A stretch of 39,594 nt of DNA, taken from NCBI GenBank assembly GCA_947449495.1, contig CANFSB010000013.1, positions 1 to 39,594 on the forward strand, in the 5' to 3' direction. The DNA comes from Pseudomonadota bacterium. GTDB taxonomy: Bacteria; Pseudomonadota; Gammaproteobacteria; Steroidobacterales; Steroidobacteraceae. This document shows, in pieces, positions 6,878 to 39,594 of the stretch. Positions within the stretch are counted from its first letter, which is position 1, and the number at the start of each line of letters is the position of its first letter. The position numbers were made by a program, and so were the translations under genes. The notes below the pieces were generated by a model. The model saw only the letters and a list, made by a program, of their open reading frames with translations, did no database searches and was not told where the DNA came from.

Positions 6878-8512
6878 CTAGCCGGGAACCATCAGCGTGA
6901 ATGGCCACACATACGCCATCAGCAGCACAACCAGTCCCACCAGCGAGGCCAGTGCAATGCTGTGCACAAACACATAGCGAAGAATTACGCCCTCTTGGCC
7001 AAACCAGCGCGTAGCAGTCGAGGCCACCACAATGCTTTGCGCATCGATCATCTTGCCCATCACACCACCGGCACTGTTGGCACCAGCCATCAAGGTGGGC
7101 GATAAGTCTAATTGGCCGGCAGTGACTTTTTGCAGACCACCAAACAACACATTGGCAGCGGTATCAGAGCCGGTGACAGCCACACCAAGCCAGCCGAGCA
7201 AGGTACCGAAGAACGGATACATCACGCCGGTGGCTGCAAACGCCAAGCCCAACGTGGCGTCCACACCGGCATAGCGCGTCAAGTAACCCAGCGACAACAT
7301 CGCTGCAATAGTGAGCAGGCTGGGTGCGGTATTGCGCAGCGCACGACCATAGGTGGCCAACATGGCGCGCGGGCCCGCGCCCAGCAGCGTACCGGCAATC
7401 AGTGCCGAGACCAGAATGGCCGTACCGGTCATCGACAACAGATTGAAGTTGTATAGCGCGCGCTCCACCTCTGGCGCTGCCACCACCGGCGGAACGCGCT
7501 GCACCAGCTGATCAAGCCCGGGAAACGGCATCACGATGCGAAACACACCATCGAGCCAGGCCTTGGTAGCAGGCAAGCCCCACACAAAGACGACCAGCAT
7601 CAGCACCACCCACGGTGCCCAAGCGCGACGCAGCGCAGCGGCAGACGGCTTGGCAAACGCCTCTGCTGGTGCTTGATCTTCTGCGATCCGCATAACCTGC
7701 GCGGGCTTCCAGACACGGAGAAACAGAACCAGCACTAGCATCGACACCAGTGCCGCACCAATAGCAGTGAGCCACGGACCATGCAAATTGCTGATGAGAA
7801 GCTGCGCACCGCCGAACGACACACCGGTAACAAGCAGTGCGGGCCAGATTTGGAACGTACGACGCCAGCCGCAATAAGCCACCATCAACCAAAACGGCAC
7901 CAGCAACGCAAACGGCGTCATCATGCGGCCCACCAGTGCCGACAGATCTGCCAGCGGCAGATCTGTAACGCCAGCCAACGTGACCAGCGGTGTGCCCAAG
8001 GCACCAAAAGCCACCGGGGCAGTATTGGCAATCAACGACAGGCCCGCCGCCTGCAGACGGGTGAAGCCCAAGCCGATGAGCATGGCGCCAGTCACCGCTA
8101 CCGGCGTACCAAAGCCGGCACAGCCCTCAAAGAACGCGCCAAAACAGAACGCCACCAACAACAACTGCAAACGGCTGTCATCGGTGATGCCAGCGATCGA
8201 GTCGCGCAGAATTGCAAACTGCCCGCGCTCTTCGGTGAGCTGATACAGGAAGATGATGTTGAGCACGATCCAGCCGATGGGCATCAGACCGTAGGCGGCG
8301 CCGAAGCCTGCTGCACCCAACGCCTGACCGATAGGCATGCCAAAGCCACCAACCGCCACGGCAAGCGCTGCCAATAAACCGGCGATCGCAGCTACTGGTG
8401 CGCGCCAGCGCAGTACCGCCAAGCCACCCAACAGCACCACCAGCGGAATCACCGCCATCAGCGTGGACACCCACGCCGCTCCCATCGGGTTGTAATCCTG
8501 CGACCAAAGCAT
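6878..8512 (-). CDS. L-lactate/glycolate permease (LctP family)
   Basis: The 544-residue protein is very hydrophobic, with a dozen or more predicted membrane segments. It has the LctP signatures FGAFFEGCAGFGTPVAV, ANTAPVAFGALGTP and GSDTAANVLFGGLQ. Members (LldP, GlcA) are inner-membrane symporters for lactate and glycolate. As first gene of the glcDEF operon it is most likely the glycolate importer, functionally GlcA, though lactate transport cannot be excluded. AGGGAG lies 8 bp before the ATG. No GlcC-type regulator and no malate synthase gene are present in the window. Confidence 0.93.
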   Translation of the reverse strand: MLWSQDYNPMGAAWVSTLMAVIPLVVLLGGLAVLRWRAPVAAIAGLLAALAVAVGGFGMPIGQALGAAGFGAAYGLMPIGWIVLNIIFLYQLTEERGQFAILRDSIAGITDDSRLQLLLVAFCFGAFFEGCAGFGTPVAVTGAMLIGLGFTRLQAAGLSLIANTAPVAFGALGTPLVTLAGVTDLPLADLSALVGRMMTPFALLVPFWLMVAYCGWRRTFQIWPALLVTGVSFGGAQLLISNLHGPWLTAIGAALVSMLVLVLFLRVWKPAQVMRIAEDQAPAEAFAKPSAAALRRAWAPWVVLMLVVFVWGLPATKAWLDGVFRIVMPFPGLDQLVQRVPPVVAAPEVERALYNFNLLSMTGTAILVSALIAGTLLGAGPRAMLATYGRALRNTAPSLLTIAAMLSLGYLTRYAGVDATLGLAFAATGVMYPFFGTLLGWLGVAVTGSDTAANVLFGGLQKVTAGQLDLSPTLMAGANSAGGVMGKMIDAQSIVVASTATRWFGQEGVILRYVFVHSIALASLVGLVVLLMAYVWPFTLMVPG

Positions 8513-32443: not shown

Positions 32444-32519
32444 GCTCCCTTCGTCTAGAGGCCCAGGACATAGCCCTCTCAAGGCTAGTACACCGGTTCG
32501 AATCCGGTAGGGAGCGCCA
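32444..32519 (+). tRNA. tRNA-Glu (anticodon CTC)
   Basis: The acceptor stem GCTCCCT pairs with AGGGAGC, followed by G and an encoded CCA. The D arm has CGTCTAGAGGCCCAGGACA. The anticodon stem TAGCC/GGCTA encloses the loop CTCTCAA, so the anticodon is CTC at 32478-32480. The T arm is CCGGTTCGAATCCGG. The body matches bacterial tRNA-Glu. The CTC form is less common than TTC in gammaproteobacteria and reads GAG. Confidence 0.97.
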
Positions 32520-32645
32520 TTTCAGGCCCTTTAGCGGCCGTAGCCCATTTCACAACGCCCGCCCCGCCCAGGTTCTGGGTAGTCTGCCTTGCAGGGTGCA
32601 GCCTTGGCTGCGCCACTCGGCGCGCGTTTTTGCCGCCTCATACCC

Positions 32646-33053: not shown

Positions 33054-33107
33054 AACACCGACAAACCGTGGTTGACAACTATTGCCAAGCTGGAAGAGCA
33101 TTCCTGC

Positions 33108-33362
33108 ATGAGCCGCACGCTGACAATGAACATCGCCCTACCAGAGGGACTGCGCCACTACGTGGCAGAGCGCGTGGAGTCAGGCAATTACGGCAATACC
33201 AGCGAATACGTACGCGAACTCATCCGCAAGGATCAGCAACAGCAATCAGTAGATGCGCTGCGCGCACTGCTGCAGGAAGGGCTTGCAAGCGGGGACGCAA
33301 AACCAGACACAGCGCAGGAACTCCAAGAGCTTCGCCAACTGGCACGCGGTAAGCGTGGGTGA
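33108..33362 (+). CDS. ParD-like antitoxin
   Basis: The 84-residue protein begins MSRTLTMNIALPEGLRHYV with a ribbon-helix-helix DNA-binding domain. SGNYGNTSEYVRELIRKDQQ is the ParD signature, and the disordered acidic/Gln tail would bind the toxin. GGAAGAG lies about 12 bp upstream; a TTG 36 bp earlier is in frame but unlikely. Its stop overlaps the toxin start (GTGA). By family it neutralises the toxin and represses its own promoter. Confidence 0.88.
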   Translation: MSRTLTMNIALPEGLRHYVAERVESGNYGNTSEYVRELIRKDQQQQSVDALRALLQEGLASGDAKPDTAQELQELRQLARGKRG

Positions 33363-33670
33363 AGCAGTGTTGGCTCAGACCCAAAGCACGGGCTGATCGT
33401 CGGGCCGAGCTGCTCTACTACCGTCGCAAAGCCGGCAGCCCGGTCGCAGAAGACTTTTTAGCTGCGGTGCAAAACACGCTTGCCATGCTGGCCAAACACC
33501 CCTCTAGCGGATCAGCGCGCTTAGGCCAGTTGCTGCAAGTCGAAGGCCTGCGCAGCAAGCGCGTTGTTGGGTTCCCGCTGAGCATTTGGTACATCGAGCG
33601 GCCTGACAAAATAGAGGTCATCCGCATCATCGGGCAGCGTCAACATCCGCAGTTGCAACCACTCGAGTAG
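33359..33670 (+). CDS. ParE-like toxin
   Basis: The 103-residue protein starts at a GTG overlapping the antitoxin stop. It has the RelE/ParE fold pattern: a helical N terminus (ADRRAELLYYRRKAGSPVAEDF), a second helix, GLRSKRVVGFPLSIWYIERPDKIEVIRIIGQRQ. The sequence ends with the family's usual Arg/His-containing strand. ParE toxins poison DNA gyrase, while RelE-type toxins cut mRNA; the ParD partner favours the former. Confidence 0.88.
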   Translation: MKQCWLRPKARADRRAELLYYRRKAGSPVAEDFLAAVQNTLAMLAKHPSSGSARLGQLLQVEGLRSKRVVGFPLSIWYIERPDKIEVIRIIGQRQHPQLQPLE

Positions 33671-38652: not shown

Positions 38653-38790
38653 ATGGAGCACGTCCGCCGTGAATTGACACTGTCGCGGGGGCGCTATGGC
38701 GATATCGCCAAGTACAGATGGCTGCCGAAGGAAGATGTCGTGATGATTCTCGCGGTGCGTCACCAGCGGGAGGAAGTTCTGCACGTAGCG
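38653..38790 (+). pseudogene. C-terminal remnant of a ParE/RelE-type toxin
   Basis: The frame reads MEHVRREL and then GRYGDIAKYRWLPKEDVVM followed by ILAVRHQREE. This matches the last strands of ParE-family toxins, which end in a hydrophobic strand and AVRHQRE. The N-terminal two thirds of a toxin are missing: the terminator of iorB lies only 55 bp upstream. The frame continues to 38997 without toxin-like sequence, because it overlaps a real toxin gene on the other strand. It is probably a decayed toxin-antitoxin locus. Confidence 0.6.
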
Positions 38791-38826
38791 ATCGAATTGA
38801 CCATAGCCGACCCAGCTCTCAACCGC

Positions 38827-39126
38827 TTACGAGCCGATCCGTCCCACCCAGTAACTGGGCCGCCTACGGCGATGAGCGATAGCAAGTATTACCACCTGCG
38901 ACGCATCTACACGATAGATTGCGTGGAATGGAAACCGACTGAAGCCAGCTTTGCGCAGGTTGGAACCACCTACACGGGGATAGGATTCTGGAGCTGAACA
39001 GATCCACGTCATGAGCTTCTCGAACTCAGACAAGTAATCTTCACCCAGCCCATTCATTCGGCTTTCGTAGTAGGCGACTTGGTCTAGATGTTCAGCCAGC
39101 GCCGCGCGATGAAATCGGTAGATCAC
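38827..39126 (-). CDS. RelE/ParE-family toxin
   Basis: The 99-residue protein starts at GTG overlapping the antitoxin stop (GTGA). It begins with the helix [20 protein letters not shown] and continues with [30 protein letters not shown] and [16 protein letters not shown], the usual ParE/RelE order, ending in the basic RRRRP segment. It is encoded behind an Unstab_antitox-type partner, the commonest pairing for this toxin subgroup. Target (gyrase or mRNA) is not clear. Confidence 0.88.
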
Positions 39127-39347
39127 CGCAATAGAGCATGGGCAGCTGCGCGTGCATCATCGGCCGAAACGGTATCCGACTGTCCGCTGTCAAGATCAGC
39201 AGCGCGCCGTTCGGACTCGGCATTCCAAGCCAGGGCGATATCGCCTTCGCTCTGGTCTTCCAAACTGAGCAGCAGCTTGTGAACGAGTTCGGCACGTTGC
39301 GCCACAGGCAAATGCAGAGCAGCTTCTTCTAGCGTTTCAGCAGTCAT
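39123..39347 (-). CDS. Addiction-module antitoxin (Unstab_antitox family)
   Basis: The 74-residue protein has [20 protein letters not shown] and [20 protein letters not shown], then a tail ending in [12 protein letters not shown]. This is the typical PF09720-type pattern of short helical antitoxins. AGAGG lies 8 bp before the ATG. Palindromes at 39379-39392 and 39407-39420 just upstream could be the site of autoregulation. Confidence 0.85.
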
Positions 39348-39466: not shown

Positions 39467-39515
39467 GTCGAGCCTGAAATGGCGTCTTTGAGCGGACGTT
39501 ACTGATGACGTAACC
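39467..39515 (-). repeat. 49-bp tandem repeat, unit 1, with tRNA 3'-end sequence
   Basis: This unit begins GTCGAGCCTGAAATGGCGTC on the plus strand and is followed directly by a second copy. The two differ by one base (T or C at position 34 of the unit). Read on the minus strand, each unit ends in GACGCCA plus the trailer TTTCAGGCTCGAC, identical to the end of the tRNA at the window edge. Confidence 0.9.
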
Positions 39516-39564
39516 GTCGAGCCTGAAATGGCGTCTTTGAGCGGACGTCACTGATGACGTAACC
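39516..39564 (-). repeat. 49-bp tandem repeat, unit 2, with tRNA 3'-end sequence
   Basis: This is the second copy, with the same 20-base shared segment. On the minus strand it contains ACGTCA-TCAG-TGACGT, a perfect 6-bp stem. In unit 1 the stem is changed to GTTAC/GTAAC pairing. The first 20 bases of a third copy (39565-39584) run straight into the true tRNA. Confidence 0.9.
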
Positions 39565-39577
39565 GTCGAGCCTGAAA

Positions 39578-39594
39578 TGGCGTCCCCAAGGGGA
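39578..39594 (-). tRNA. 3' end of a tRNA, cut by window edge (possibly tRNA-Glu)
   Basis: Read on the minus strand, the last bases are TCCCCTTGGGGACGCCA. This is the end of a T arm, a 7-base acceptor strand TGGGGAC, discriminator G and encoded CCA. The acceptor partner would be GTCCCCA. That combination resembles bacterial tRNA-Glu(TTC), but only the final 17 bases are visible and the identity is not proven. Confidence 0.6.

Follow-up and report, generated by a model that had tools for sequence, protein, structure and literature searches.

To our knowledge, repeats that carry the 3′ end of a tRNA are known mainly from one operon of E. coli. At the tyrV locus, which was used here as the rtT control, the E. 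coli unit reads AAGGTTCGA, followed by ∼70 nt of hairpins and ATCCTTCCCCCACCACCA, with GGATGAGAA standing before it. The core of the unit lies inside the T-loop of the copied tRNA-Tyr end, and the Rfam family RtT (RF00391) matches all three E. coli repeats with 134–137 bits each. The rtT RNA is a by-product of the tyrT transcript, for which an effect on the stringent response has been reported (PMC4986893).

The stretch of DNA analysed here (the window, 39,594 nt) is the entire contig C13 of a genome in 159 contigs (G000), so that position 39594, where the sequence stops, is a contig end. An array of short repeats lies at this end, and the following features of the array and its surroundings are referred to below:

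39578–39594, minus strand: last 17 nt of tRNA-Glu(UUC), TCCCCTTGGGGACGCCA; the remainder is on contig C89, as supported by synteny with the congeners G002 and G005
39565–39577, minus strand: tRNA trailer TTTCAGGCTCGAC, copied in every unit, from sequence reading and the 20-mer search
39516–39564, minus strand: repeat unit 1, 49 bp; its 29-nt middle, in which the weak hairpin GGTTACGTCATCAGTGACGTC and a degenerate tRNA end lie, is followed by GACGCCA and the trailer
39467–39515, minus strand: second repeat unit, 49 bp; identical to unit 1 except for one base of the middle
39123–39347, minus strand: antitoxin (Pfam Unstab_antitox), on the strand of the array and downstream of it
38827–39126, minus strand: ParE-family toxin, partner of Unstab_antitox; present in G005, absent at the same place in G002
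33072–33670: ParD/ParE locus, the second toxin locus
32444–32519, plus strand: tRNA-Glu(CUC), convergent with tRNA-Glu(UUC), no repeats behind it

A preliminary description of this DNA had read three copies of a 20-mer and two 49-bp units, each with a small hairpin and with a tRNA-like part that agrees with the true 3′ end at 12 of 17 bases, and its observations on the sequence are correct in every detail. The 20-mer GACGCCATTTCAGGCTCGAC is present in three exact copies on the minus strand (39584–39565, 39535–39516 and 39486–39467) at a step of 49 bp. Even when up to three mismatches are allowed, the window holds no further copy (0.01 expected), and none of 100 shuffles reached three. TRF agrees with the exact search (period 49, 2.4 copies, 98% matches, score 229), the 29-nt middles of the two units differ by 1 base, and a recount of the tRNA-like part again gave 12 of 17. 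The hairpin of each spacer is present, though weak (−6.2 and −6.1 kcal/mol, z −1.2 and −2.2). As 49 cannot be divided by 3, a reading of the array as a coding repeat was rejected. The two toxin loci noted in the neighbourhood are confirmed as Unstab_antitox/ParE (39347–38827) and ParD/ParE (33072–33670). An ORF near the array on the plus strand (38653–38997) is ∼95% conserved in G002 (L033:2690–3043) and has no Pfam match.

The tRNA that had been predicted to lie to the right of position 39594 is tRNA-Glu(UUC). Its complete gene (bases 7959–8034) terminates contig C89 exactly at the CCA, and the 17 nt with which it closes are the same as those that open the minus strand of the window, where ARAGORN did not detect the tRNA because the contig breaks off. 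In G002, DNA matching C89 (96%), the array and DNA matching C13 (98%) follow each other in uninterrupted order, and G005 has the array on one contiguous stretch with an intact tRNA-Glu(UUC) before it and the same toxin–antitoxin pair behind it. The synteny in these two congeners supports the join of C89 to C13. Since the 17-nt overlap is exactly what the tRNA end and an intact unit share, further units may sit between the two contigs; the base preceding the overlap is A in the tRNA and G in the unit. The sole tRNA-Glu(UUC) found in G002 (L033 ∼2362–2409; G002:C13:145861–145918) is without 45 bp that include the 5′ half. Since tRNA-Glu(UUC) should be essential, this gap is likely an assembly error at the array, a real deletion being the alternative.

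A parallel to the rtT repeats of tyrT and tyrV (RtT; rttR/tpr) had been drawn for this array, and it holds for the layout but not for membership. As in E. coli, tandem units stand directly behind a tRNA, and each carries a CCA-bearing tRNA 3′ end together with the trailer. However, the E. coli units measure ∼178 bp and contain the T-loop core and GGATGAGAA, while the 49-bp unit is devoid of both and copies 17 nt of the tRNA. Rfam RtT has no match in the window and none in L033 or L034 at E values up to 1, the rtT-like core model R1 described below does not match the arrays of the window, L033 or L034, and the motif GATGAGAA ahead of the copied T-arm, an rtT trait, is absent from the 49-bp unit. 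Judged by its sequence, the array is a new compact variant with the rtT kind of layout and place, yet it is not an rtT.

Copies of tRNA 3′ ends do stand behind other tRNAs of the same genome, namely tRNA-Arg(CCG), tRNA-Ser(GCT), tRNA-Ser(TGA) and tRNA-Met(CAU), but each Arg and Ser copy carries a GC-rich core within its T-loop, and the spacer behind tRNA-Met is unrelated. The cored, rtT-class elements were located as follows:

C25:1919–2020 of G000, minus strand: rtT-class element
C1:145849–145955 of G000, minus strand: rtT-class element
C2:95–199 and C2:294–377 of G000, plus strand: rtT-class elements
L116, L181, L183, L190, L194 and L203: rtT-class elements at other loci

In this class the core consists of GA-flanked hairpins that form a chain, covary and interrupt the T-loop of the tRNA 3′-end copy downstream of the gene (GTTCGAC ... 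GGTCCCGAGC..GCGAGGGA ... AATC). The motif is present in 23 of 217 genomes of the family, with no matches in the reversed control, and its stems covary strongly (56 double-change cells vs 18 expected; 0 of 500 shuffles as high). The covariance model R1, built from the core motif, finds all three E. coli rtT repeats (E 0.003–0.02) and has matches in 55 of 370 genomes of the class, while Rfam RtT recognised only E. coli among the tested loci. At 17 of 29 inspected loci a recognisable tRNA (Ser, Arg, Gln, Glu, Tyr or Pro) has its 3′ end copied at steps of ∼145–200 bp, several of them in tandem. On the basis of modest model scores and an identical architecture, we take these cored elements and E. 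coli rtT to be one class. They share with the 49-bp unit the kind of site and the duplicated tRNA 3′ ends, but differ from it in the covarying hairpin-chain core and the longer period of 145–199 bp. The occurrence of a compact array in a distant lineage, an uncultured lake bacterium whose genome also has rtT-class elements behind three further tRNAs, points to a recurrent conversion of tRNA trailers into repeat arrays. The origin and use of rtT can thereby be tested by comparing many tRNAs and species, beyond tyrT.

The preliminary description had proposed a search for the 49-bp unit in related genomes, and it is found there. Nine genomes represent the genus, and the array is present in three of them, G000, G002 and G005, always behind tRNA-Glu(UUC), with two, three and one units, respectively. 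The array is dispensable in congeners: G001, G004, G007 and G008 have an intact tRNA-Glu(UUC) with no array behind it. Every unit in the three carriers steps 49 bp, made up of 17 nt of tRNA end and a 32-nt spacer. The units of G002 and G005 each begin from a perfect 17-nt tRNA end, and the decayed end TCCGCTCAAAGACGCCA occurs twice in G000 and once in G002. A search of 217 family genomes recovered the array in these three only and in no other genus. A wider scan, over 84,980 species genomes and restricted to perfect tRNA ends in repeat, returned G002, G005 and one unrelated partial tRNA-Glu duplication. In the Deltaproteobacteria MAG JAFDHQ010000241 (L046:3171–3304) the 3′ part of tRNA-Glu is likewise repeated directly behind the tRNA, but as a plain 55-bp tandem duplication with no spacer.

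The neighbouring DNA of G000 and G002 is 96–98% identical, while the array reaches only 78–86% in long matches, and the toxin–antitoxin pair is missing in G002 at the same place. Therefore the array locus is turning over faster than its surroundings. Units 1 and 2 of G002 are identical, whereas unit 3 departs from them at 12 of 32 spacer positions, a pattern that would be expected from recent slippage. Outside the decayed units the 17-nt tRNA end is always perfect, while the spacers diverge at up to 12 of 32 positions. Selection could account for this, and gene conversion from the tRNA would look alike. The spacers have no significant similarity to the body of tRNA-Glu, and the spacer of one unit has a marginal similarity to the tRNA leader (p 0.014).

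On balance it seems probable that the array is a tandem array of the tRNA-Glu(UUC) 3′ trailer, which would have formed by duplication of the tRNA end and slippage, would be weakly constrained and would represent mainly a by-product of tRNA-gene turnover. The decay of the tRNA-like part to 12 of 17 bases in the window, the copy numbers of two, three and one, and the absence from four congeners argue for this reading. We propose that a copy of the last 17 nt of the tRNA arose 49 bp downstream of the CCA in an ancestor within the genus, and that the 49-bp block of tRNA end, trailer and short palindromic filler was then multiplied or shrunk by replication slippage or by unequal crossing-over between the identical tRNA ends. 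Since the array has the same direction as the tRNA and no intrinsic terminator was found between it and the antitoxin, it is probably part of the tRNA precursor transcript, and co-transcription of tRNA, array and toxin–antitoxin pair is plausible; the array would then be removed during 3′ maturation. Units with a perfect end are predicted to fold into a CCA-ended minihelix, and some short RNAs may be released from them, which we judge to be mainly by-products.

Alternatively, the array could be functional, with RNase P, RNase E and exonucleases cutting out CCA-ended units whose RNAs serve as sponges or decoys, for instance of enzymes of tRNA processing or aminoacylation or of an sRNA. Such a role is a proposal in the case of rtT and has been demonstrated for other tRNA trailers. 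Each intact unit is predicted to form the minihelix CGUCCC-CUUG-GGGACG-CCA (6 bp, −10.1 kcal/mol, z −2.6), which speaks for this possibility, as does the stringent-response effect of E. coli rtT, itself a transcript by-product (PMC4986893). If such RNAs are released, tRNA enzymes would encounter them as natural minihelix substrates or decoys. However, the decayed units of the window are predicted to retain only a 4-bp version (−3.6 kcal/mol), and the predicted fold of the complete 155-nt stretch is not more stable than those of shuffles (z −0.5). In addition, none of 8 predicted pairs changes on both sides among the five distinct units, a sample of low power. Given also that four congeners lack the array and that the tRNA part is decayed in the window species, we consider a function of this kind unlikely, though less so than the explanations that follow.

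One observation is not predicted by plain slippage and would argue against it. Behind tRNA-Met(CAU), on contig C64 of G000 (L077) and contig C11 of G002 (L078), the last 13 nt of the tRNA recur exactly 49 nt downstream. This copy is absent in other congeners and is identical in the two genomes (13 of 13), with 25 of 36 spacer positions shared without gaps. The spacer is unrelated to that of the tRNA-Glu array, yet the step is the same. Over all tRNAs, ∼2e-4 such copies are expected by chance, a value computed separately, as the control for genome-wide tRNA-end copies is inflated by neighbouring true tRNAs. A process of this lineage might copy tRNA 3′ ends to a fixed place 49 nt past the CCA (17 nt for Glu, 13 nt for Met) and so build minimal arrays of CCA-ended minihelices that are processed with the tRNA. 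Together with the T-loop-cored rtT, this would make one of two routes to RNA-producing trailer arrays. We regard such a process as rather unlikely.

Duplications of tRNA ends also result from genomic islands, and it had been suggested that the units mark serial insertion and excision at a tRNA attachment site. Repeated integration at a 17-bp tRNA-Glu core would then have left stacked att remnants, with the toxin–antitoxin pair as cargo. Lengths of 17 bp and 13 bp, as copied here, are typical of tRNA att cores, the last 13–17 nt of the tRNA are directly repeated as at island attachment sites, and the toxin–antitoxin pair, which G002 does not have, lies directly downstream of the array in G000 and G005. 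Nevertheless, of the components of an attachment site only the direct repeat of the tRNA 3′ end was found. The tested ORFs, either next to the array or in the corresponding interval of the congeners, included no integrase or recombinase, and thus no tyrosine integrase, which the preliminary description had proposed to look for; the units have no match, as attP would give, in phages, plasmids or viral contigs. The copies, unlike those of genomic islands, are just 32–36 bp apart with no integrase or cargo between them; in the tRNA-Glu array successive spacers are homologous and, at only 32 bp, too short for an element. The genes between the convergent tRNA-Glu pair, among them those for XdhC, a 2Fe–2S protein and an aldehyde/isoquinoline-oxidoreductase-like protein, are largely conserved and metabolic and are common to several congeners at 65–98% identity. 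The suggestion of attachment-site scars is not borne out by these results, and we consider it improbable, slightly more so than the copying process.

Still more doubtful is descent from an rtT-like ancestor behind tRNA-Glu whose T-loop core was deleted, the deletion running from one CCCC to another, in the inverted T-arm and in the T-arm. A member of the same family, G172, carries two tandem 159-bp rtT-like units behind tRNA-Glu(UUC), and if the core between its CCCC runs were taken out, ∼47 bp would remain. The spacers of the 49-bp array give a better alignment than shuffles with the G172 linker (p 0.004–0.025) and not with other rtT linkers, but the similarity is marginal after correction for 18 comparisons. 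Moreover, no intermediate form was found in the genus, and the unit has no GATGAGAA motif; when the family was searched for this pattern behind tRNA-Glu, G172 was the only match apart from four that are probably accidental.

That the array is an assembly artefact at the end of a MAG contig is hardly credible and largely refuted, since the independent MAGs from Lac Pavin (G002) and from the Umea bin set (G005) have the same array at the same place within contigs, although the end of the window inside the array and the 45-bp tRNA gap next to the array of G002 indicate a locus that is hard to assemble.

The second tRNA-Glu gene of the window shares part of the trailer: CGCCATTTCAGGC, the trailer of tRNA-Glu(CUC) (32515–32527, plus strand), matches CGCCATTTCAGGC in the trailer that is copied in the array, and congeners carry other trailers behind tRNA-Glu(CUC). 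This shared sequence hints at a possible conversion between the two convergent tRNA-Glu genes.
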